From Chloracidobacterium sp. CP2_5A (GTDB lineage: Bacteria > Acidobacteriota > Blastocatellia > Chloracidobacteriales > Chloracidobacteriaceae), in contig NKPT01000038.1 in the NCBI GenBank assembly GCA_002254845.1, forward strand, positions 1 through 33,140: DNA of 33,140 bases, written 5' to 3'. This document shows positions 4,270 through 31,591 of this stretch, piece by piece. The notes beneath the pieces are model-generated. The model made no database searches. It was not told where the DNA came from and saw only the letters and a program-made list of their open reading frames with translations. Every line of letters begins with the position of its first letter. The first letter of the stretch is position 1. The position numbers were made by a program, and so were the translations under genes.

Positions 4270-4887
4270 ATGAAAGAACGCGACCTGACCAACAAATACC
4301 TCGAAGTAGGTGAACTTATTCAACGAGGCCGCCGCGCCGCGCTCAAGGCCGGCGCGGTCGGCCTCGGCGCGAGCGCCTTCACGCTGCTGAGCGGCTCGCT
4401 GCTGGCGCCGTCCGTGGCGCTTGCCGCCGACAAGGCCGGCGATGTGAAAATTGCCAATGTGGCCCTCAACCTGGAGCATCAAGCGATCGCCGCCTATGGC
4501 GTTGGCGCTGGCACTGGCTTGCTGGAAGGGACGGCGCTGGCGGCGGCAAAGCTCTTTCTGAGCCACCACGAAGCGCACCGCGACTCGCTCATTGGCGTCA
4601 TCAAGAAGTTTGGCGGCACGCCTGTCGAGCCGAAGAAGGATCCGAAGGAATACGAGGCGATCGCCGAGGCCGTGCCGAAAATCAAGTCGGCGACCGACGT
4701 CCTCGAATTCGCGCTGACGCTGGAAGAGCAGGCGGCCGGCGCATATATCGGCGTCTTGACCTCGTTCTCGGAAAAAGATCTGATTCCGGTGCTAGCGGGC
4801 ATTGGCGCGGCGGAAGCCCAACACGCGGCCCTGCTGCGTTTTGTGCTTCAGAAGAGCCCCCTCCTTCAGGGTCCGGTTGTTAAGTAG
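4270..4887 (+). CDS. Tat-exported ferritin-like (DUF4439/Ferritin_2-type) protein
   Basis: A 205-residue protein. An N-terminal twin-arginine-like signal (RGRRAALKAG, arginines 21-22, then a hydrophobic stretch to an ALA-AD cleavage site near 52) precedes a four-helix ferritin-like domain. Candidate metal ligands appear in each helix: E69 in LEHQ, E101/H103 in HHEAHR, E152 in LEEQ, and E182/H185 in EAQH. This matches the diiron pattern of small exported ferritin-like proteins. Storage, peroxide reduction or another oxidase role cannot be told from sequence. ATG 4270 is preferred: GGAGG at 4254-4258 lies 11 bp upstream, and the Tat motif is then N-terminal. A GTG at 4261 is too close to that site. 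Folded export by Tat fits a pre-assembled metal centre. It has its own terminator. Confidence 0.75.
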   Translation: MKERDLTNKYLEVGELIQRGRRAALKAGAVGLGASAFTLLSGSLLAPSVALAADKAGDVKIANVALNLEHQAIAAYGVGAGTGLLEGTALAAAKLFLSHHEAHRDSLIGVIKKFGGTPVEPKKDPKEYEAIAEAVPKIKSATDVLEFALTLEEQAAGAYIGVLTSFSEKDLIPVLAGIGAAEAQHAALLRFVLQKSPLLQGPVVK

Positions 4888-4907
4888 CATCCTGCCCAAC
4901 TCCATCC

Positions 4908-4944
4908 AGCCCCTGTCTCTCGCTCAGAGCCGGCAGGGGCTTTT
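4908..4944 (+). terminator. Rho-independent terminator after the ferritin-like gene
   Basis: An 8-bp perfect stem (AGCCCCTG at 4908-4915 with CAGGGGCT at 4934-4941) with an 18-nt loop is followed at once by T residues. It lies 21 bp after the ferritin-like stop and 22 bp before the cytochrome start. It may act as an attenuator, leaving the cytochrome at reduced readthrough or under its own start. Confidence 0.65.
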
Positions 4945-4965
4945 CACCACTCGGAGACGCCCCCC

Positions 4966-5313
4966 ATGGTCAAGCGTTTAGTACTGGCAATCGCGCTTGT
5001 CGGCGCATTGGCTGCGGTCTGGTCAGCCCCGGCCGCTCAAAAAGGCAAAGCCGCCGGCGACGCTGCCAAAGGCAAGGAGCTTTTCGCCCAAACCTGCGCG
5101 CCCTGCCATAGCGCCACCAGCAAGACGGCAAATGTCGGCCCGGGGCTGAAAGGTCTTTTCAAAGAGAAGACCATGCCCGCCACCGGACGCCCGGTTTCCG
5201 TCGCCGTGGTCAAGTCGCAGATTCAGAAAGGCGGCGGCGGCATGCCCGCGTTCGGTAGCAAGTATAATGCGCAGGAGCTGAATGACTTGATCGCGTACCT
5301 GCGCGCGCTGTAA
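4966..5313 (+). CDS. Exported monohaem c-type cytochrome (class I)
   Basis: A 115-residue protein with an N-terminal signal peptide (VKRLVLAIALVGALAAVWSAPA), one haem-attachment site CAPCH (C44, C47, H48) and a likely distal Met ligand in GGMPAFG (M93). The C-terminal helix ELNDLIAYLRAL is typical of small class I cytochromes c. It is probably a soluble electron carrier in the periplasm. GGAG at 4953-4956, 9 bp upstream, supports ATG 4966. It follows the ferritin-like gene by 78 bp across a terminator and precedes xseB by 9 bp. Its electron partner is not evident here. The neighbouring exported ferritin-like protein is one candidate, and photosynthetic or respiratory chains are others. Confidence 0.9.
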   Translation: MVKRLVLAIALVGALAAVWSAPAAQKGKAAGDAAKGKELFAQTCAPCHSATSKTANVGPGLKGLFKEKTMPATGRPVSVAVVKSQIQKGGGGMPAFGSKYNAQELNDLIAYLRAL

Positions 5314-5322
5314 CGTCGTCCT

Positions 5323-5586
5323 ATGCTGACTCGGAAAGCGGATGAGTCATTGAGTTATGAAGCCGCGCTCGCGGAGCTGGAGCGGATTGTCCAGCAAATG
5401 GAAGACGGAAGCCTTCCGCTGGAGGCGTCCCTGGATCTCTTCGAGCGGGGCATGACGCTGGCCCGGCTGTGTCGAGCGCGCCTATCCGCGGCTGAGCAGC
5501 GGATTGAAACCATCCTCAAATCAGCGGATGGCGACTTTGTCATCGCTCCTTTCGCGGCCGCTGCTGATGACGCCGACGACGAATGA
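5323..5586 (+). CDS. xseB: Exodeoxyribonuclease VII small subunit
   Basis: This 87-residue protein matches XseB throughout: LSYEAALAELERIVQQMEDG, then SLPLEASLDLFERGMTLARLC, and a coiled-coil helix ending QRIETIL. XseB binds the large subunit XseA to form the single-strand-specific exonuclease VII used in DNA repair. xseA is not in this window. The acidic tail (DDADDE) overlaps the start of the next gene by 20 bp, so the FHA protein is probably translationally coupled to it. There is no clear Shine-Dalgarno before ATG 5323. Confidence 0.9.
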   Translation: MLTRKADESLSYEAALAELERIVQQMEDGSLPLEASLDLFERGMTLARLCRARLSAAEQRIETILKSADGDFVIAPFAAAADDADDE

Positions 5587-6388
5587 CACCTCCAATTTCG
5601 CCGCTGAGCAAGCTCCCATCGCCCTGACCGTGACCCGCCTATGTGGCGCGCTGGCCGGGCAACGGCAAGTCGTTCGCCAACTTCCGGTCGTCATCGGTCG
5701 CTCCCGGCAGTGCGCGATTCGGCTTAGTGCCGCCGATGCCGAAGTCTCGGGCCGTCATGCGCAAATTTCCTTCGACGGACACGCCCTCTGGGTTGAAGAC
5801 TTAGGTAGCGCCAACGGCACGCGCCTCAATGACCAGCCCATCGGGCGGGCCGCGCTTGCTAGCGGCGATGAAATTGAGCTTGGACCGGGCGGCCCTCGCT
5901 TGCGCGTGACCTTTGACTGGCCCGCCGCGCAGTGGGTTGGCAATGTCCAGGGCGAGACTTATCACCTTGGCACATGCGAATTCCCGCTGCGCTCGGCGCT
6001 GCGCTTCCCGATCTACGGAGCGGGCGCGCTGTGCTTACTGCTGCCGCTCTGGCTCGGCAGCTTGGTCGCCGCCGTGTTGTTCACGCCGCTTGGTCTGCTG
6101 GCGCTGCTGCTTGGGTGGAGCCTGACGCGCGTCAACATCACCATCACGCCGCTTTGCCTGGAATATCAAGGCGTATGGCGACAAGTCACGCTGCCCTGGT
6201 CGGAAGTAACGCGCTTGCAGGTTGACTTGCGCGGCGCGGGCGGTCGCCGAGCGACCTACGCGATATTCGGGTCGGCGGGCCAAAGCCTGACCTTTCAAGC
6301 GGCTGATTATGTGAGCGGCGTCGAGCTGGCGCAGCTTATCGTTCGGCGCACGGGGAAACGCTGGGAGCCGCCGCTCGGTGAAAGCTGA
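5567..6388 (+). CDS. FHA-domain membrane protein with C-terminal PH-like domain
   Basis: A 273-residue protein. Residues 38-115 form an FHA domain with the conserved IGRS (43-46), SGRH (61-64) and LGSANGTRLN (79-88) motifs, used to bind phosphothreonine peptides. A hydrophobic block at about 148-188 can form two transmembrane helices. The rest (about 190-265: ITPLCLEYQGVWRQVTLPWSEV...) resembles bacterial PH (bPH2-like) domains. The FHA domain would be cytoplasmic. Frames extend upstream into xseB, but ATG 5567 starts just ahead of the domain and overlaps the xseB stop. No kinase is next to it; a PP2C phosphatase at 26.3-27.7 kb is the nearest phospho-signalling gene. Confidence 0.75.
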   Translation: MTPTTNDTSNFAAEQAPIALTVTRLCGALAGQRQVVRQLPVVIGRSRQCAIRLSAADAEVSGRHAQISFDGHALWVEDLGSANGTRLNDQPIGRAALASGDEIELGPGGPRLRVTFDWPAAQWVGNVQGETYHLGTCEFPLRSALRFPIYGAGALCLLLPLWLGSLVAAVLFTPLGLLALLLGWSLTRVNITITPLCLEYQGVWRQVTLPWSEVTRLQVDLRGAGGRRATYAIFGSAGQSLTFQAADYVSGVELAQLIVRRTGKRWEPPLGES

Positions 6389-8586: not shown

Positions 8587-9197
8587 GCGCCCAGCGCGGC
8601 GAAGTTCCGAAGAAGCTGCAAGCCCGCCCGCTGGCTTTTTTCAGGGTGAAACTGCACGCCTAGGACGTTGTCGCGCGCGGCGGCGCTGGCATAGCGCAGC
8701 CCGTAGTCGGTCGTCCCAATCACGGTCTCCGGGCGGACCGACGCCGCATGGTACGAATGGACGAAGTAAAAAAACGTCTCGTCGGGGATGTCCTTCCACA
8801 GCGGATGCGCCTGCGTTTGGGCGACTTGATTCCAGCCGACGTGGGGTACCGGGCGTATGTCGGCTGGGAAGCGCGTCACTTCGCCGGCCAGCAGCCCCAA
8901 TCCGGCGTGCCGGCCAAATTCATGACTCGCTTCAAAAAGCATTTGAAACCCGACGCAGACGCCCAGCACCGGCAGTCCGGCGCGGGCGACTTCCTGAACG
9001 ACGCCGTCCAGCCGCCGCGCTCGGAGCTCCTCCATCGCCGCCCCGAAGGCGCCGACGCCCGGCAGGACAAGATGCGTCGCGCGACGGACAACGGCTGGGT
9101 CGTCCGAAATCTCGGCTGCCACGCCGACCCGAGCGAAAGCGCGCTCCAGGTTGCGCAGGTTACCGACGCCGTAATCAAGAATGACCAGTCGGCTCAT
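8583..9197 (-). CDS. hisH: Imidazole glycerol phosphate synthase glutamine amidotransferase subunit
   Basis: A 204-residue class I glutamine amidotransferase. It begins with the HisH pattern LVILDYGVGNLRNLERAF, has PGVGAFG, the nucleophile C81 in GVCVGFQ, and the catalytic H184/E186 in VQFHPEKS. HisH supplies ammonia to HisF for histidine and AICAR formation. hisF and other his genes are not in the window, so it is a detached member of the pathway. ATG 9197 shares one base with the stop of the upstream VWFA gene (TGATG); a TTG one codon earlier is less likely. It is convergent with ispD. Confidence 0.93.
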   Translation of the reverse strand: MSRLVILDYGVGNLRNLERAFARVGVAAEISDDPAVVRRATHLVLPGVGAFGAAMEELRARRLDGVVQEVARAGLPVLGVCVGFQMLFEASHEFGRHAGLGLLAGEVTRFPADIRPVPHVGWNQVAQTQAHPLWKDIPDETFFYFVHSYHAASVRPETVIGTTDYGLRYASAAARDNVLGVQFHPEKSQRAGLQLLRNFAALGA

Positions 9198-10471
9198 CAA
9201 TCGCGGGCGTTGGTTGGCGCAGGGGTTGTCGCCGGCGCGTTCCGGCGCGCCATCTGCTCGGTCACAACGTAGCCCGGACGCGCCCGCACCCGCGCTTCCG
9301 GCCGGCGCACCCGCACCCGCACCCGACGATAGCCAGGCTGGTCAAGCCCGCGGGTTGGATAGTAGCCAAGCACGTAGACGTGGCGCAGGTCCTCGGCAAT
9401 CGACTTGAAAATCGCCCGCGCCGCGCCAGGATCGGTGAAGCGGTTGTGCGTCCCGCCGGAAATCGCGGCGATGTCGCGCAGAAAGGTTTCTTCAAGGCCG
9501 AGCACCGAAGGCTCTTGCCGGCTGGTTGAGCGTCCGGCTTGTGGCGGATCGGCGACCGGAAACATTGGGCCGCGGCGCGGGCGCCGCCCCGGTATCGGGA
9601 AAGGCAGCGGAAACGGAAACTGAATTGGCGGCTGTGCCTGCCCTGGGGTCGCCGCTGGATACTCCGCCGTATAAACCAGCGTATCGGACTCAACCACCCG
9701 GTCGAGGATGTCGCGCGGCTTGTACCGCCGGCTGGTCGTATCTTCGCCGTCCGTCAGCAGGATCATCGCTTTTCGGCCTTCGATCGGGGCCAGGTGGCCT
9801 TCGAGAATCTGATAGGCTGCGTCGTAGAGCCGCGTGCCGCCCTCGATCTTGGCCTGCGCCACGGCGCGGCGCAGCTCGCCCTGATTGCTGGTGAACGGGC
9901 AAAGCTGCCGAATCTTGTCCGAGAAGGTAAAGACGCTTACCGAGTCGTCAGGGCGGATATGGTCAATAAAGGCGTTCGCCGCATCGCGCATGTCGTCAAT
10001 GCTCAGATAGGCGCTCCGGCTTACGTCCAGTACCAGCGCCACGTGAAAGGGAACCTGCTCGGAGGTGAAAAACGTGATTTCCTGCGGCGTATTGTCTTCG
10101 GTCAGCGAAAACTCGCTCTTCTTGAGGAACGGCAGGTAGCGGTTGTAGTCGTCGCTGACGACCACCGGAATTGTCACTAGCGTCGCCTGAATCGTGATGA
10201 GGTCTTCATCATTGGTCGCGGGCGGCGGCGCGGCCGGCGCAGGGCTTGGGGCGCTGTCTCCGCGCCGGCCCAGCGTCGGTCGCTCCCGCATGTTCGGGGC
10301 TTCCGCGTCATTGGCGTCCATTGGCGGGCGCGACGGCGCGATCCGCGGGCGCGACGCGTGGCGCCCGGATTGGGCTGTCGCCAGCAGCGGCAATCCGGCC
10401 AGCGCCAGGATCGCCCAAAGCGCCCAGAGCCGACGCGCCCTTTGGCCTCTCGCTTGCTCAATGTTTCCCAT
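9197..10471 (-). CDS. Secreted VWFA-related (acidobacterial-type) domain protein
   Basis: A 424-residue protein with a signal peptide (hydrophobic 15-32, cleavage near ATAQS), a low-complexity Pro/Ala linker (to about 88) and a von Willebrand factor A domain with an intact metal site: DVSRS (D149, S151, S153), T213 in GGTRL and D241 in LTDGED. The preceding ITIQATLVTIPVVVSDDYNRYL...SEFSLTEDNTPQEITFF segment is the hallmark N-terminal strand region of the TIGR03436 'VWFA-related Acidobacterial domain' family. A proline-rich insert (about 283-316) interrupts the domain. It is likely an extracytoplasmic adhesion or protein-binding factor of unknown partner. It is the first gene of a two-gene unit with hisH. 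Confidence 0.85.
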   Translation of the reverse strand: MGNIEQARGQRARRLWALWAILALAGLPLLATAQSGRHASRPRIAPSRPPMDANDAEAPNMRERPTLGRRGDSAPSPAPAAPPPATNDEDLITIQATLVTIPVVVSDDYNRYLPFLKKSEFSLTEDNTPQEITFFTSEQVPFHVALVLDVSRSAYLSIDDMRDAANAFIDHIRPDDSVSVFTFSDKIRQLCPFTSNQGELRRAVAQAKIEGGTRLYDAAYQILEGHLAPIEGRKAMILLTDGEDTTSRRYKPRDILDRVVESDTLVYTAEYPAATPGQAQPPIQFPFPLPFPIPGRRPRRGPMFPVADPPQAGRSTSRQEPSVLGLEETFLRDIAAISGGTHNRFTDPGAARAIFKSIAEDLRHVYVLGYYPTRGLDQPGYRRVRVRVRRPEARVRARPGYVVTEQMARRNAPATTPAPTNARD

Positions 10472-18097: not shown

Positions 18098-18405
18098 ATG
18101 CGCGAAAAGCGTAAGTCAAGTAAAGTATGAGAACGCTTGTCAGGCTGTCAATGCGGTTTGCCTCTGCGTTTATCCGAGCGCGCGCGGCGCGAAAGCGCGG
18201 CTCTTCCCAGCGACCTGTTCCTGCTGGTCTCTGCGTCCCCATGTTCGCAAGGCTGGACTTTAGCTCGGCTCTCTAGCTCCGGCGACGGCGCCGCTTGCCT
18301 TGCGCTTCAGCCCCAAACTAAGGCGCGCTGCGCATCGCCCCTGCGTAATCGCTGCAAGCGTGAAAGCGCGTAGATTCAATAAAGCTGTTTTCGGAGTTGA
18401 GAGGT
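18098..18405. other. Divergent intergenic region, tRNA-Lys / secreted metalloprotease
   Basis: These 308 bp hold the tRNA promoter at the left and the leader of the metalloprotease at the right, where GGAG at 18393-18396 and GAGAGG at 18399-18404 precede ATG 18406. I see no credible gene; short open frames here lack any recognisable motif. No clear plus-strand promoter was found. Confidence 0.5.
18124..18151 (-). promoter_or_regulatory. Sigma70-like promoter for tRNA-Lys
   Basis: On the minus strand a perfect -35 TTGACA (18151-18146) is followed after 16 bp by CATACT (18129-18124); with 18 bp spacing the alternative -10 is TACTTT. Transcription would begin about 20 nt before the mature tRNA. 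Confidence 0.65.
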
Positions 18406-21400
18406 ATGTCTCGCGTCTGTTCCCTTCGCCCATCAGTCGCCCTGCGGGTCGGGGCGTGCTTAGCGGTTTTCCTAGTCGGCGTCTGCGGGTTGCCAGCGGC
18501 CTTGGCGCCCGCGTCGCGGCTGACCGGCCGCGCCGCCGCTGATGATCCATGGCGAGAAACGCTTCAGTTCGTCGCCCGCGCCACGCGCCGCGATCTTGTC
18601 CCGCAGCCGGAGCGAAAGCTCGAGTCCGGGGCTGTGATGCTCGACGTGAGCGAGGGCTTCCAGCACGTCGCGCTGGCGCGGCGCGAAGCCGACGGTCGCG
18701 TTGTGGTCGCCTGCGTCGGCAGTCTCTCGGAAGCGGAAGCTTTCCTGCGCGGCGAAGCCGACGGTCTAGAGGGCGACCACAGCCATCGCGACCAGCTTCC
18801 CAACCGCGACATTGCGCTACCGCCTACCCGGATGCAGGTCGGCGCGGCGACCGGACCGGCGGTCAAGCGCGAGAACGCGCAGGGTTCAACCATTGTCATT
18901 CGTAACCAGAACGAGCCCGGCGTCGGCTTCAACGACCCAACGCCGGCGACGCCGGTTGGCGGCAATCCCGGCGTGACCCTTGGTCAGCAGCGGCTCAACG
19001 TCTTCCAGCGGGCGGCTGAAATCTGGGGCGCGACGCTCCGCAGCAACACGCCGATTGTCATCAACGGTCAGTTTACGTCGCTGGCGAGCGGGGTGCTCGG
19101 CTCGGCGGGGACAACGTCCATCTTTCGCGGCTTCCCGAACGCGCCGCTTGGCGACACGTGGTATCACTACGCGCTAGCTAACGCGCTGTCCGGGCAGGAC
19201 CTCGCTCCGCAGGAGCCGCCGCGCGCGCAAATCAACACCAACTTCAGCACGAATTTCACCTTCTACCTTGGTCTCGACAACAACGCGCCGCCCGACCAGG
19301 TGGATTTGCTGACCGTCGTGCTGCACGAGTTCGCGCACGGTCTGGGCTTTAGCACGTTTGTCAACTCAGCGAACGGGCGCAACGCGGGCGCGAGCGATGA
19401 AAACCCCGACGGGGGCTTTACGGATTGTTACGCGCGACTGCTGCGCGATGAAACTCTCAACCTGAACTGGAATCAAATGACGGCGGCGCAGCGGCAGGCG
19501 TCGGCCACCAACACTGGCAATCTGACCTGGACCGGACCGACAACGCAGAGCGCGCTGCCGGTGGCGTTGGAGCCATCGCCAGTGTTGCGCATTGAGCGCA
19601 ATCCGCCGGTGACGTTTGCCACTAATCAGGCAACGTTTGGCGGAGCGATCACGCTGGGCGGATTGACCCGGCCGCTTATCGCGGCGCAGCCGGCGCTGGC
19701 GTGCGGGACGTTGTCGAATCCGGGGGCGGTCAACGGGAACTTGGCGCTTGTGGATCGGGGCGACTGCCCGTTTGTGGACAAGGCCTTCAACGTCCAGCAG
19801 GCCGGGGCGCAGGGCGTTATCATCGCCAACAATGCCGCGGGCGGCTTTACCCCTGGTGGAACCGTGACTGGTATCACGATTCCGGTCGTCGGGATTTCCC
19901 AAGCGGACGGCGCGACCCTGCGCGACTTTTTATCAAGCGGAGGCGTGACGGCGACGCTGCTGCTCGACCCAACGCGCCTGACTGGGACAACCAACGGCCG
20001 GATGCGAATGTTTGCGCCGAATCCGCGTCAGGCCGGCTCGTCAGTCTCGCACTGGGACAACACGGTTCGGCCGCGCTTGCTGATGGAGCCGGCAATTACG
20101 CCGCGCCTGCCGCGCACGCAGGATTTGACGCTTAACCTCTTCCAAGACATTGGCTGGACGGTCAACCCGATTTTCTCGGCGGGCGGCGTCGCCATACCGG
20201 CAAGCGGATCAAGCGTCCCGCAACAAGTCGCCATCAACGCCGTCGGCGCGTGGACGGTTTCGGGAATTCCCAACTGGGTGACCGGCTTTCCGGCGGCCGG
20301 CAACTTGCTAACGCCGGTGAGCTTTCAGGTCGCGCCGAATCCGGGGCCGGAACGGACGGCGACGCTGACGCTCAATCCCGGCGGCAATACGTTCACCATT
20401 GTCCAGAGCGGCGCGGAAGCTGCTCCGAGCTTTACCAGTCCCAGCGCGGTGACGTTCACGGTCGGGCAGGCCTCGAGTTTCTTTATCGCCGCCAGCGGGA
20501 ATCCGCCGCCCAACATCACGCTGGCGAGCGGAACCTTGCCGCCGGGCGTGACCTTCACGAGCGGACTCGGCAGCGCCTTGCTGGCTGGCCTGCCGACGGC
20601 CGCCGATATTGGGACATACGCGCTGGTTGTCCGCGCCACGAACGGCGCCGGAACGGCGACGCAAAGCCTAACGCTGACCATCGGGCAGGGACTCTGCGCG
20701 TTTGCCGTGACGCCAAATTCCGTCAGCGTCGGCGGCGACCACATCGCCGGCGTCCAGCTGACAGTGACGACCGGCCCGACCTGCGCGTGGGAAGCCACCG
20801 TCCGTAATACGGACGCGCCGTGGATCAAGGTTATTGCGGCGCAGTTGTCCGACGGGCGCATCGCCTTGCCCCGCATGGTCGGCGCGCTTGGCGATGTCAA
20901 CCGGCGGCTGGCGATTTCCGGTTTCGGGAACGGCGCGGTGACGATTGCCATTGGACGCAACCCGCGTCCAACGCCGCGCACCGGAACCTGCCTCATCGCC
21001 GGACAAGTGGTGACCGTCATGCAGTCCGGGTCGTCGGGCGCCAGCGCGCCGGTCGGCTCGACGATGGCGATGTTCCGCCCATCAAACGGGTTTATGTATC
21101 TGAAAAACCAACTGATCTCCGACTTCGCCGATCAGGACTTTTTCTACGGCTTGGCCGGGGATGCGCCGCTAGCGGGCGATTGGGACGGCGACGGCATTGA
21201 CACGCCGGGGATTTACCGCAACGTCAACGGCAACCAGACGTTTTTCCTCATCAACAACAATACGGGCGGCTTTGCGGATATATCGTTCGCGTTTGGCGGC
21301 GCCGGCGACATCCCCATTGCAGGCGACTGGGATGGGAATGGGACGGTAACGGTTGGCGTCTATCGTCCGAGCGCGCAGACGTTTTTCCTCCGGAACGCGC

Positions 21401-21813
21401 TGGCTAGCGGGAATCCTGACTCGGTCGTGAGCATCACGGGCGCGCAGGCGACAGACCGCCCGATCGCTGGGCGCTGGACGGCCGGGAGCAATGTGACGGG
21501 ACTGGGGCTGTATCGTCCGAGTTCAGGGCGGTTTTTGCTCAAGAATGCCAACGCGAGCGGCGCGCCGGACGCGGACTTTGTGATGACAACGACCGGGGTA
21601 TTTGTGGAGGCGGTGGCCGGCGATTGGACGCGCCAGGGGTTTGCCACGGTGGGCGTCGTGACGAGCCTGAGCGGGACGATTCAGTTCCAGCTTCGGAACT
21701 CAAACACGAGCGGCGGGCCGGACATTCGGGTGAACTACGGCGCGCCGGGCGATGTGCCACTAATCGGGAGCTGGGACGGACAGCCTAAGCCGCCGCCGGT
21801 GTCTGTCCCCTAA
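18406..21813 (+). CDS. Large secreted metalloprotease: metzincin-like domain with inserted PA domain, BACON/Ig domains and C-terminal repeats
   Basis: A 1135-residue protein with signal peptide (hydrophobic about 11-35). The catalytic core has HEFAHGLGF (H307, E308, H311, G314). The position usually holding the third ligand is Thr (T317), but SHWDN (H549) and LMEP (559-562) occur about 235 residues later. That is the leishmanolysin-like plan of a distant third His and a Met-turn. Between them lies a PA domain (about 400-525; LALVDRGDCPFVDKAFNVQQAGAQGVIIAN). Next come a BACON-like domain (about 591-668, ending FTIVQSG), a putative Ig domain (about 672-760, LPPGVTFTSG...AGLPTAADIGTYALVV) and a second BACON-like domain (763-875). 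Five repeats fill 885-1125. A TTG at 18397 is possible, but ATG 18406 follows GAGAGG. It is probably released or attached to the cell surface. Confidence 0.8.
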   Translation: MSRVCSLRPSVALRVGACLAVFLVGVCGLPAALAPASRLTGRAAADDPWRETLQFVARATRRDLVPQPERKLESGAVMLDVSEGFQHVALARREADGRVVVACVGSLSEAEAFLRGEADGLEGDHSHRDQLPNRDIALPPTRMQVGAATGPAVKRENAQGSTIVIRNQNEPGVGFNDPTPATPVGGNPGVTLGQQRLNVFQRAAEIWGATLRSNTPIVINGQFTSLASGVLGSAGTTSIFRGFPNAPLGDTWYHYALANALSGQDLAPQEPPRAQINTNFSTNFTFYLGLDNNAPPDQVDLLTVVLHEFAHGLGFSTFVNSANGRNAGASDENPDGGFTDCYARLLRDETLNLNWNQMTAAQRQASATNTGNLTWTGPTTQSALPVALEPSPVLRIERNPPVTFATNQATFGGAITLGGLTRPLIAAQPALACGTLSNPGAVNGNLALVDRGDCPFVDKAFNVQQAGAQGVIIANNAAGGFTPGGTVTGITIPVVGISQADGATLRDFLSSGGVTATLLLDPTRLTGTTNGRMRMFAPNPRQAGSSVSHWDNTVRPRLLMEPAITPRLPRTQDLTLNLFQDIGWTVNPIFSAGGVAIPASGSSVPQQVAINAVGAWTVSGIPNWVTGFPAAGNLLTPVSFQVAPNPGPERTATLTLNPGGNTFTIVQSGAEAAPSFTSPSAVTFTVGQASSFFIAASGNPPPNITLASGTLPPGVTFTSGLGSALLAGLPTAADIGTYALVVRATNGAGTATQSLTLTIGQGLCAFAVTPNSVSVGGDHIAGVQLTVTTGPTCAWEATVRNTDAPWIKVIAAQLSDGRIALPRMVGALGDVNRRLAISGFGNGAVTIAIGRNPRPTPRTGTCLIAGQVVTVMQSGSSGASAPVGSTMAMFRPSNGFMYLKNQLISDFADQDFFYGLAGDAPLAGDWDGDGIDTPGIYRNVNGNQTFFLINNNTGGFADISFAFGGAGDIPIAGDWDGNGTVTVGVYRPSAQTFFLRNALASGNPDSVVSITGAQATDRPIAGRWTAGSNVTGLGLYRPSSGRFLLKNANASGAPDADFVMTTTGVFVEAVAGDWTRQGFATVGVVTSLSGTIQFQLRNSNTSGGPDIRVNYGAPGDVPLIGSWDGQPKPPPVSVP
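21058..21786 (+). repeat. Five C-terminal FG-GAP-like protein repeats of the metalloprotease
   Basis: Five units of about 45-50 residues follow the plan FRPS..FYLKN...SG..D..F..G..GD.PLAGDWDGDG. The calcium-loop-like DWDGDG is intact in unit 1 (925-930) and near-intact in unit 2 (DWDGNG), but degenerate in units 3-5 (RWTAGS, DWTRQG, SWDGQ). Confidence 0.6.
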
Positions 21814-21835: not shown

Positions 21836-21863
21836 GGGAGGGACGCCCGGCGCCGTCCCTCCC
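21836..21863. terminator. Bidirectional terminator between convergent genes
   Basis: A perfect 10-bp stem (GGGAGGGACG at 21836-21845 with CGTCCCTCCC at 21854-21863) has an 8-nt loop. On the minus strand it is followed by AAACTTTTT; on the plus strand by TGCTTCTTCC. It sits between the metalloprotease stop (21813) and the end of the minus-strand exported protein (21901). Confidence 0.75.
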
Positions 21864-21900: not shown

Positions 21901-22584
21901 TTATGGATGCCTGTCTAACCTCAGACCGCCGCCGCCCGGCGCTGACATCTGAATCGCGCCGCCGCCCGACGGCATGGTGATCGGCGCGCTCGGCCTGACG
22001 CCACTCGGAAAGTCGATGTCGGGACGCTTATTCATGCGGTTTATAAAATAAATAAGCTGCTGGAGCTGTCGCAGAGCTGGCGACGCCTGCGAGACTGGCT
22101 GCCGCTGGCGGAGAGTAAAACCCGGTTTCGTCGGCAGCGCCATCGGCGACTGAATGGGCTGGCTCAGCGGCAGCGCTACTGGCTCCGGGTCTTCCGAGGG
22201 GATGATCGGCCAGGGCAAGAACGCGCCCGCTGGACGGCCCGCGGGCAGGATCGGCGCTTGGGTTTGCTCGCCCGATGACGGCAGGAAAGTCAGGATGGTA
22301 TTTGGCTGGACATAACAACGGCGGGGCGCTCGCCCATGCCGCTCGGCGCGCTGCCGGAGTTCTTGGTAGCGCTTGGCGTCGGCGAGCCCCTGCTGCACGC
22401 CAATCGGCAAATCCGATGGATCGCCGATGGTTGGCGCCGCAGTGGACGGGTTCGCGCTGCGCTGGACGGGATTCTGAAGCGCCTGTGGTCGAGCGTTTTG
22501 TCCAAAGGCGATTGTGGGCGCGAGGGCGACGAGCGCGCCCATCGCTAGGCCGGCAGCGCTATCTCGTAAGTTCATCGTGGTCAT
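21901..22584 (-). CDS. Exported proline-rich protein of unknown function, GVQ-motif (copy 1)
   Basis: A 227-residue protein with signal peptide (SAAGLAMGALVALAPTIAFGQ) and otherwise low-complexity, Pro/Gln/Ser-rich sequence. I recognise no family. The one structured segment is DLPIGVQQGLADAKRYQELRQRA (from residue 58), which recurs in the next gene. A single Cys follows at C90. A second short helix (ALRQLQQLIYFINRMNKRP) lies near the C-terminus, and the tail is Gly-rich. AAGGAG lies 7 bp before ATG 22584 and fixes the start. It is probably periplasmic or envelope-associated. It ends at a bidirectional terminator. Confidence 0.72.
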   Translation of the reverse strand: MTTMNLRDSAAGLAMGALVALAPTIAFGQNARPQALQNPVQRSANPSTAAPTIGDPSDLPIGVQQGLADAKRYQELRQRAERHGRAPRRCYVQPNTILTFLPSSGEQTQAPILPAGRPAGAFLPWPIIPSEDPEPVALPLSQPIQSPMALPTKPGFTLRQRQPVSQASPALRQLQQLIYFINRMNKRPDIDFPSGVRPSAPITMPSGGGAIQMSAPGGGGLRLDRHP

Positions 22585-22730
22585 CTTGCGACTCCTTTCG
22601 CGTCAGTTCGTCGTCGGTAATGTCGGTTAATGCGCGAACGCTTAGCTACCTCTACGCTGGCCAGCGCACAGCATGTTTTACGCAAAGTAACTCGTAGCCA
22701 GAAATGAGGCTCGCTTTGAACGCGATAGCC

Positions 22731-23309
22731 CTACTGCGGGAGGGACGATTTAGCCGGCTTCTTGGGTTTTGGCCAGTCCCGGATAACGGTCTTGCCGCCG
22801 GCTGGCGGCGCAGTCGGATCTTGAGCGCTGTTGCCGCTCTGAGGCGCCGCCATTTGGCTTTCGGCTGGCGGATCAGCCGGCGGGGGGGTGTACTCAAGCG
22901 GCGGGGCCGGCTGTGAAACCGTCTGTGGCAGCTGAGGAGACGGAGAAGTTGGCGGCTGATCTTCGGGGGCGGCTTCTTCCGGCGGCGGCCACAGCAGCCC
23001 CTTCCGGCGAGCTTCCGCTTCCGCCCGCCGCTGAGCGGCGGCCTTGCGCTGGTATTGCTCTTCAAGGCGCTTGGCCTCGGCTAAGTTATCTTGAACGCCA
23101 AGCGGCAAGTCGTCCGCGTTGGCTGGCGGGGGCGCGCTTCCATCAGCGTTCGGCGTCGCTTTGGGCCGCTTTTTCGCCGGCTTGGATTTCGCTCCCTTGG
23201 GCGCGGGCGCGCCTTCCTGCGCCAAGCCGGCGACGGGCGACAGCGCGAGGCAAGCGCCAAGCAGCCCGCCCATCCAAAAATTGTGATGGCTGCGTTGCAT
23301 AAAGCGCAT
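22731..23309 (-). CDS. Exported proline-rich protein of unknown function, GVQ-motif (copy 2)
   Basis: A 192-residue protein. A signal peptide (FWMGGLLGACLALSPVAGLAQ) is followed by a Lys/Pro/Ala-rich stretch, the conserved DLPLGVQDNLAEAKRLEEQYQ (from residue 67) leading into a charged helix (to about 103), then a proline-rich tail. No known domain is recognised. GGAAGGAG lies 10 bp upstream of ATG 23309, so the longer open frame to 23390 is not needed. It is the upstream member of the pair, with 146 bp before the start of copy 1. That gap shows no obvious terminator. Confidence 0.72.
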   Translation of the reverse strand: MRFMQRSHHNFWMGGLLGACLALSPVAGLAQEGAPAPKGAKSKPAKKRPKATPNADGSAPPPANADDLPLGVQDNLAEAKRLEEQYQRKAAAQRRAEAEARRKGLLWPPPEEAAPEDQPPTSPSPQLPQTVSQPAPPLEYTPPPADPPAESQMAAPQSGNSAQDPTAPPAGGKTVIRDWPKPKKPAKSSLPQ

Positions 23310-23446
23310 AAAGCCAAATCTCCTTCCAACAGTCCGGACGGGCGTCCCATCCGCTGACGTATCGTGTGGAAGGTTGGGCGGCTTCGTCAAGCGCTGCCGG
23401 CTAACGAGGTCAAGTCAAGCGAGAAGAGGCTTCAGCGCGCCGGTCT

Positions 23447-24412
23447 TCAAGGCGTTTGGGCGTCGAGTTCGTCCAAAAGCTTCGCCGCACCCTGCGCTAG
23501 GACGCGCTCGGCCAGCTCTTTGCCAATGTCCTCGGCAAAGCGAGCGTCGCCGGTTAGCTCGTCCTGAACGAGGCGCGTCCCATCGGTACAGGCAACTAGG
23601 CCGCGCAGGCGGAGGCGTCCCTCATTGTCTACGGCGGCATGGGCCGCGATGGGCACCTGACAGCCGCCGCCCAAGCCGTGCAGAAAAGACCGCTCAGCCT
23701 CGCAAGCGCGCCAAGTGACATGATGCGCCAGGACCTGTACGACCTCGCGGGTCGCGGCGTCCTGTTCTCGAATCTCAATCCCTAGCGCCCCTTGCCCGAC
23801 AGCGGGCAGCATAACATCGGTCGGGATGCGCTGCGCGATGCGCGATTCAAAGCCAAGTCGGATCAGCCCGGCCGAAGCCAAAATGATGGCGTCATAGCGC
23901 CCTTCTTCCAACCGCTGGAGGCGCGTGCCGACGTTGCCGCGCAGGTCGGCAAGCTGGAGGTCCGGCCGGCGGGCGAGGAGTTGCGCCTGGCGGCGGAGGC
24001 TGCTGGTTCCGATCACAGACTTGGGCGGAAGGTCATCCAGGGATTGAATTCCTTCCCGCGCCACAAGCGCGTCGCGGACATCCTCGCGCCGCGTGACGCA
24101 CCCCAGCGTCAACCCTTCCGGCAAGCGGGTCGGCAGGTCTTTCAAGCTGTGCACGGCCAAATCCGCCACGCCGGCCAGCAAGGCTTCTTCAATTTCCTTG
24201 GTGAAAACGCCTTTGCCGCCGATTTTTGAGAGCGGGGCGTCAAGAATGGCGTCGCCGGTGGTCTTGATGATCTGGATGGCGACGCGGCGGGCTGGAAAGG
24301 CTTGCTCAAGTTGCGCCTTGACCCATTCGGCCTGCCGGAGCGCCAGCGCGCTGCCGCGCGAGCCGATGATGAGGTCGGCGTTGAGTCGAGTTGCGGGAAC
24401 AGTTGAACTCAT
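23447..24412 (-). CDS. hemC: Hydroxymethylbilane synthase (porphobilinogen deaminase)
   Basis: This 321-residue protein matches HemC across its length: IGSRGSALALRQAEWV, KTTGDAILDAPLSKIGGKGVFTKEIE, the catalytic Asp in HSLKDLPT (D92), IGTSSLRRQAQLL (substrate-binding arginines), and C251 in GGGCQVPIAAHA, which carries the dipyrromethane cofactor. It joins four porphobilinogen units into hydroxymethylbilane, the precursor of haem and (bacterio)chlorophyll. It appears alone here, with no other hem genes adjacent. Its Shine-Dalgarno is weak. Confidence 0.96.
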   Translation of the reverse strand: MSSTVPATRLNADLIIGSRGSALALRQAEWVKAQLEQAFPARRVAIQIIKTTGDAILDAPLSKIGGKGVFTKEIEEALLAGVADLAVHSLKDLPTRLPEGLTLGCVTRREDVRDALVAREGIQSLDDLPPKSVIGTSSLRRQAQLLARRPDLQLADLRGNVGTRLQRLEEGRYDAIILASAGLIRLGFESRIAQRIPTDVMLPAVGQGALGIEIREQDAATREVVQVLAHHVTWRACEAERSFLHGLGGGCQVPIAAHAAVDNEGRLRLRGLVACTDGTRLVQDELTGDARFAEDIGKELAERVLAQGAAKLLDELDAQTP

Positions 24413-31027: not shown

Positions 31028-31591
31028 ATGGCCTTATCGTCAGTCTCATCCAAGATGCCGACGCCGCGCATGCGGCGAATTTTTTTCAAACTTTCCGAGC
31101 AGTGGGGTCCTCCAACCCGCATGGCGGCCCATGCGGCGCTGCATATCGCTGTTTGGGAAGACCCGGACGGCACGGCGATGGCCTTCAATACGCTGGGGCT
31201 GTCCGATGCGGCCCGCGCCGCCGACGGCTCGCCCATCGAGCTGCACTGGCTGGTCAAGCGCCCGCTCGACCTTGCCGCGCAAACGGCGGCGGCGGCGTTT
31301 TTAGCGCAACTGGCTGCCGCCGCCCGCGTCCCGGAGGCGCGATTTGATTGGCATCGGAGCGTTCGCGCGCCCGAAGGCGTCCCCGGCTTTCCCCGCTGCT
31401 TTGACCTCTGGCTGCATCCAGCGCTGACCGCCGCCGATCCCGATACGCTCGAAGACGCCGAAGGCGCGATCAAAATGCTCTACGTTATCCCGCTGACCGA
31501 ATATGAAAGCTTCGTCCTTGCGCAACAGGGCGCGAACGCCTTGCTTGATTACCTTCATCTCAACCAGATTGACTTGCTGGCGCCGCGCTGA
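31028..31591 (+). CDS. Suppressor-of-fused (SUFU)-like domain protein
   Basis: A 187-residue protein without signal or membrane segment. Two blocks resemble the bacterial SUFU domain: AMAFNTLGLSDAARAADGSPIELHWLVKR (51-78; the TxGxSD..P.ELhh pattern) and the C-terminal MLYVIPLTEYESFVLAQQGANALLDYL, the 'PLT..E...a...G..aLL..l' ending. SUFU-like proteins in bacteria are often immunity proteins or accessory domains of toxin systems, but no toxin gene is next to this one. The function is unknown. It is preceded by a membrane protein (26 bp) and followed by a histidine kinase (59 bp). Confidence 0.65.
   Translation: MALSSVSSKMPTPRMRRIFFKLSEQWGPPTRMAAHAALHIAVWEDPDGTAMAFNTLGLSDAARAADGSPIELHWLVKRPLDLAAQTAAAAFLAQLAAAARVPEARFDWHRSVRAPEGVPGFPRCFDLWLHPALTAADPDTLEDAEGAIKMLYVIPLTEYESFVLAQQGANALLDYLHLNQIDLLAPR

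Follow-up and report, generated by a model that had tools for sequence, protein, structure and literature searches.

Two adjacent, exported-looking proteins with a shared conserved motif form an apparently genus-restricted pair in Chloracidobacterium

Our analysis of a 33,140-nucleotide stretch of DNA from Chloracidobacterium sp. CP2_5A (hereafter the window; the assembly has 3.4 Mb in 385 contigs) revealed two adjacent genes, here called A and B, whose exported-looking products share one conserved motif. Chloracidobacterium is a genus of light-using bacteria from hot springs. With full-length profiles of A and B, both genes were found, adjacent, in all seven Chloracidobacterium genomes searched. 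Judged from sequence, the two proteins are supported as a lineage-specific, undescribed family restricted to this genus within the genomes searched. The reading we favour, to which we give slightly less than an even chance, is that A and B are exported, largely disordered tandem paralogues and that a shared helix docks both of them to the same or a related partner in the envelope. The features concerned are listed in Table 1.

Table 1. Positions in the window of the A/B pair, its parts and the flanking features.
Feature	Position	Strand	Basis
Inverted repeat of 10 pairs between A and the convergent gene, terminator-like on both strands	21836..21863	.	
Gene A, exported-looking Pro/Gln/Gly-rich protein, 227 aa	21901..22584	-	ORF; orthologues in 7/7 genus genomes, aligned
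A core: motif DLPIGVQQGLADAKR and following predicted helix	22303..22413	-	Core profile E 4.9e-20, own sequence in profile
A residues 1-28: signal-peptide-like segment ending AFG-Q	22501..22584	-	By eye; Gln29 invariant
Gene B, exported-looking Pro/Ala-rich protein, 192 aa	22731..23309	-	ORF (ATG 23309, stop 22731); orthologues in 7/7 genus genomes, aligned
B core: motif DLPLGVQDNLAEAKR and long charged predicted helix	22965..23111	-	Core profile E 2.7e-20, own sequence in profile
B residues 1-30: signal-peptide-like segment ending GLA-Q	23220..23309	-	By eye; Ala30-Gln31 invariant
Promoter-like footprint CTTGACG-N21-GATAC, 49 bases upstream of the B start	23359..23391	-	Pattern upstream of B in 7/7 genomes
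hemC (porphobilinogen deaminase), conserved upstream neighbour outside the pair	23447..24412	-	PF01379/PF03900; same position in 7/7

An ORF check placed both reading frames where the sequence-only reading had put them, and its description of two neighbouring exported-looking proteins with one motif in common was confirmed by the comparisons given below. B lies upstream of A on the same strand with a gap of 146 bp between them, and both lie downstream of hemC, from which B is separated by 137 bp. The two proteins are built alike: a hydrophobic segment leads via a linker to the motif, after which come a charged stretch and a Pro-rich tail. The set of 14 proteins used throughout comprises A and B from the window and from six relatives (seven genus genomes); the Pro content of the A/B proteins is 14–21%, each has 0–2 Cys residues, and CxxCH is absent by eye. 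In the window and its relatives the start codons are preceded by a purine-rich, Shine-Dalgarno-like stretch (by eye), except that of A in G002. The A orthologue of this genome (L042 11493-12428) lacks an evident ATG around the position of the conserved start, which leaves the start codon uncertain; its open frame extends back into the end of B.

The motif had been proposed in a form that we found, exactly as worded, in 4 of the 14 proteins. A relaxed form, [DEN]LP[IL]G[VI][QL]..[LM].[DE][AV][KR]R, which we formulated after inspection of the 14 proteins, is present in all of them, and in this form the motif is conserved in the orthologues. Of the window's stop-to-stop frames that are 40 aa or longer, only A and B contain it.

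The resemblance between A and B is beyond chance. BLASTP aligned the two window proteins with E = 4e-9 over 88 aa (35%), and hhalign aligned the two orthologue alignments at 97.4%, E = 1.3e-11 over 69 columns. After removal of the signal segments, the local A-B score was higher than those of all 400 shuffles of A in each of the seven genomes (z 4.9–8.1); in the window it was 98, against a shuffle mean of 50.2 and maximum of 84. The earlier statement that all else differs between the two proteins did not hold, as the similarity spans the signal region, the linker and the core with its helix, and the layout matches as well. Because it covers these parts, tandem paralogy is the simplest account of A and B, which are best read as ancient duplicates; the A rows are 25–30% identical to window B. 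By the definition adopted here, the paralogue family has a signal-like region, the relaxed motif and a Pro-rich tail, all found in the 14 proteins; for a following helix, the further criterion, the prediction covers the two window proteins. The helix segment of B is about 11 residues longer than that of A, and therefore A and B may not dock alike. A weak P-x-GG-x-I tail is possibly common to the C-termini of both, tentatively so since GG is absent from A of G001 and G004.

A profile of the 38-position core gave 14 matches at E ≤ 1.1e-18, two per genome in the seven genus genomes. A and B of G004, which were left outside this profile, matched it with E 3.9e-21 and 5.7e-20 and are close to the G001 rows inside it. 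No credible match was found in the other 155 of the 162 genomes of the class (best E 0.0037), some match at E ≤ 1 being present in 81 of these 155. In a draw of 396 genomes of the phylum, which overlaps the class set, the core profile gave two matches in each of the four genus genomes and no credible match in the 392 others; single matches in G493 and G497 (E 0.002 each) were rejected, being by eye a sensor kinase and a PadR-like regulator. In many genomes a part of the first-look candidates was scored (among the matches listed, at most 43, 20, 17 and 17 per genome in the core-class, B, core-phylum and A searches, respectively), and therefore a diverged A/B relative could be missed.

Several weaker matches were considered and rejected. 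B matched G034 with E 6.8e-4 over query residues 6-85; the frame there begins like a signal peptide and continues with a comparable linker, but its examined part lacks the motif, and we take the match to reflect signal and linker composition. A second match of B in G001 (E 0.0036) was not accepted as a sign of a wider family, and neither were matches of the B profile in three other class genomes (E 0.005–0.008, positions 4-65) nor the best non-genus match in a single-sequence search with A (E 0.012). Plasmid records gave no match with B as the query.

Neither Pfam nor NCBIfam contained a family matching window A or B at E ≤ 1, the NCBIfam search covering the window pair only, and the 14 orthologues gave just three stray Pfam families (best E 0.13). 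A sequence search of the PDB returned one match for B (E 8.7) and none for A at E ≤ 10. With the core profile, 20 distinct PDB sequences were found at E ≤ 10; the best (2e-4) was a designed repeat protein whose single stretches were insignificant (about 460 each), and it was rejected. No paper describing these proteins or their motif strings was found in the literature searched. The suspicion that this could be an undescribed lineage-specific family is thus supported by the genome counts, and Pfam, NCBIfam and the PDB gave no significant match that would assign the proteins to a known large family.

The gene order in the window and the six relatives is the same (7/7): g29510, a metC-like gene, a PP2C-like gene, a glycosyltransferase (GT), a methyltransferase (MT), hemC, B, A and a convergent gene for a PA-domain protein. 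Pfam matches were obtained for hemC, MT, GT and the PA-domain protein, while the metC-like and PP2C-like names were assigned by eye. The count of copies and neighbours across acidobacterial genomes, proposed as a check in the sequence-only reading, therefore gave two core copies per genus genome and one gene order. In the sister genus G008, GT-MT-hemC is kept on an 8 kb contig; A and B were found neither at this locus (tblastn) nor in the genome (profile searches), and the frame after hemC reads by eye like exonuclease VII. In G009 and G007, neither A nor B was found within 15 kb around hemC.

The gene convergent with A in all seven genus genomes (window 18397-21813, plus strand) encodes a large protein with PA, BACON and He_PIG domains; by eye, it also contains HEFAHGLGF, which is metallopeptidase-like, and repeated GDWDG-type units near the C-terminus. 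Elsewhere in the window we noted a SUFU match just below the Pfam cut-off (31028-31591, plus strand; 24.5 vs 25 bits, E 2.7e-5), a protein combining Pro-rich stretches with a von Willebrand A domain (9197-10471, minus strand; PF13519, E 1e-12), and a ferritin-like protein (PF13668; 4255-5313, plus strand) followed by a small c-type cytochrome (PF13442/PF00034).

When all genome pairs were taken together, the core had a pN/pS of 0.13 for B and 0.24 for A, compared with 0.41–0.59 for B and 0.54–0.68 for A in the other segments, a contrast that is partly by construction because the core was delimited by its conservation. The pS values, 0.64–0.70, are near saturation and similar across segments; with this and the choice of the core by conservation, only the pN/pS contrast counts. 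The core is the most constrained segment of A and B, in agreement with the earlier claim that the motif is kept while the rest drifts, although that segment was chosen for its conserved look.

A and B are predicted to be largely disordered. The AF2 models, built from three sequences each, were weak, with a mean pLDDT of 59.0 for B and 50.8 for A and a pTM of 0.22 and 0.17, respectively. In B, a helix was predicted for residues 70-102, starting inside the motif, and the mean pLDDT was 57 for residues 61-70 and 65 for residues 71-80 (the motif), followed by 80, 80 and 73 for blocks in the charged stretch. In A, the predicted helix (61-82) also starts inside the motif, with ten-residue block means of 63, 70 and 57; the highest block mean in A, 73, belongs to a C-terminal helix (169-185) outside the motif. 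The motif ranks among the less confident helical parts, and reading it as a helix cap with the first turns of the helix is plausible at this low confidence. The amphipathicity of the core helix is modest: in 10 of 11 core sequences, 6–34% of shuffles reached the observed moment, and a strongly amphipathic helix was rejected as unsupported.

The signal peptides were called by eye, as a hydrophobic stretch followed by Ala/Gly-Gln. In the combined alignment of A and B, the Gln after Ala/Gly at the presumed cleavage point is invariant in all 14 rows, and AF2 placed a low-confidence helix in both signal segments (A 7-20, B 9-22). On this reading by eye, both proteins may be exported by the Sec route and cleaved before the invariant Gln. 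Another possibility considered was that B is lipid-anchored via Cys20 in an LGAC lipobox-like site, as a Cys occupies the lipobox-like place in five of the seven B proteins and in one of the seven A proteins (G005). But this Cys is missing from the other two B proteins (Ser in G006, Gly in G003) and from six of the seven A proteins, unlike the invariant downstream Gln. Lipoprotein identity of A or B was rejected on account of the non-conserved Cys, and we regard it as highly improbable.

Upstream of B there is a block that looks like a promoter for this gene. The pattern CTTGACG-N(20-21)-[GC]AT[AGT]C, formulated after viewing the alignment, is present there in all seven genomes, and the rest of the hemC-B gap aligns poorly. 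One 7-mer is common to all seven within 120 bases upstream of B, as was the case in 0 of 500 shuffle sets; because the genomes are related, this is a footprint rather than seven independent cases. The seven genomes lack even a common 6-mer upstream of A. In relative L041 the pattern is matched a second time, some 3 kb away. The window has a single TTGAC-N(20-23)-GATAC, where 0.06 would be expected by chance, and one was seen in 6 of 100 shuffles; no promoter came up in a strict sigma-70 scan. The putative promoter upstream of B probably serves both genes, which would then be cotranscribed. As for the inverted repeat after A, four terminator-like sites were found in the stretch against a shuffle mean of 4.4, so they are no commoner than chance. 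A simple hairpin search, run without a shuffle control, gave stems of 9–12 pairs after A in five of the six other genomes and of 6 pairs in G006, and a T-run follows the stem only in the window, G001 and G004.

According to the favoured reading, A and B would have arisen as ancient tandem paralogues confined to Chloracidobacterium, paralogy being the presumed cause of their likeness. Both would be exported, cleaved after Ala/Gly before the invariant Gln, and would sit in the periplasm or on the cell surface as Pro-rich chains. Asp/Asn/Glu-Leu-Pro would form a helix cap and [IL]G[VI][QL]..[LM].[DE][AV][KR]R the first turns of the conserved helix, which may be a docking element for the same or a related envelope partner, with the Pro-rich arms serving as spacers; transcription of the pair would probably start at a conserved promoter of its own, upstream of B. 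Docking is suggested because an exported, largely disordered chain has one constrained helix, and binding of an envelope or surface partner by the motif, as proposed in the sequence-only reading, is a reasonable inference. A bolder version, in which A and B make up a two-protein envelope module of disordered adaptors, with the capped helix as a new docking motif, one dedicated partner and a promoter of its own since the genus arose, is possible but doubtful.

Besides docking to a third protein, pairing of A with B was considered. If A and B bound each other or themselves via the shared helix, with the motif as the pairing surface, they would make a short helical bundle with Pro-rich arms, and the co-occurrence and adjacency of the genes in seven genomes and the same helix start kept in both proteins would be in keeping with it. 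We consider such pairing unlikely, as the hydrophobic spacing is irregular by eye and the amphipathicity is within the shuffle range for 10 of 11 cores. It is also rather unlikely that the proteins are a passive Pro-rich envelope filler, in which the helix persists with neither a specific partner nor a docking role: the core is under tighter constraint than the remaining segments at comparable pS, and it persists in all 14 proteins though the A and B sequences have diverged so far, even if the Pro-rich composition, the lack of a family match and the weak predicted structure would all suit a filler.

A role in the photosystem was considered because the genus is chlorophototrophic, the sole such genus of Acidobacteriota according to PMC8245765. 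A and B would then belong to the photosynthetic apparatus as an accessory part in the periplasm, at the reaction centre, the cytochromes or FMO, an idea favoured by their restriction to this genus, by the adjoining hemC and by the FMO family, which is present in 7/7 genus genomes and in 8 of the 162 class genomes. In addition, the reaction-centre structure of Chloracidobacterium includes an unidentified polypeptide, UPP, according to PMC9751088. This role is weakened because the sister genus G008 has FMO, as well as GT-MT-hemC, without A or B, in a genome of 90% completeness, split into about 1090 contigs, whose FMO contig may be misbinned. The lack of a significant PDB match for A or B also speaks against it, although the PDB copy searched may lack reaction-centre chains. 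UPP was modelled as polyalanine, and therefore a sequence search could not find it, and it is described as a non-helical membrane span, which does not favour A or B. We hold a photosystem role to be very unlikely.

The FMO frame of G008 lies at 4683-5867 (minus strand) of L118 (G008:C758:1-8389), and the end of this contig reads by eye like pscA. The G008 FMO is 91.7–94.2% identical to three Chloracidobacterium FMOs, which are 96.1–98.4% identical among themselves. Barring misbinning, G008 may be a second chlorophototrophic genus of Acidobacteriota, in the same family.

TonB/TolA-type periplasmic proteins have a hydrophobic N-terminus, a Pro- or Ala/Lys/Glu-rich spacer and a short envelope docking element. 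A and B are similar in having a hydrophobic N-terminus, a spacer and a candidate short docking element. However, their signal looks cleaved, their core is in the first half rather than at the C-terminus, and they have no Pfam match in the window and none of note among the 14 orthologues. A and B are also like the reaction-centre subunits PscU-Z and UPP of Chloracidobacterium (PMC9751088, PMC10968294), which are lineage-specific too and belong to the membrane or the periplasm; of these, PscX and PscY are haem cytochromes, whereas A and B have few Cys and, by eye, no haem-binding-type CxxCH. With orphan exported low-complexity proteins they have in common the lack of relatives outside the genus in the searches made, a signal-like start and a fast-changing Pro-rich body. 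The A/B pair belongs to this familiar kind, the lineage-specific exported orphan proteins, but differs from such proteins generally in being two paralogues side by side with one more constrained helix.

Consequences beyond Chloracidobacterium are limited. For the genus itself, one of chlorophototrophic Acidobacteriota, the two proteins provide a marker family that is small, clean and as yet unnamed. The most constrained part of these two drifting proteins has been narrowed to 28–38 residues, and this core would be a ready bait for an envelope partner.
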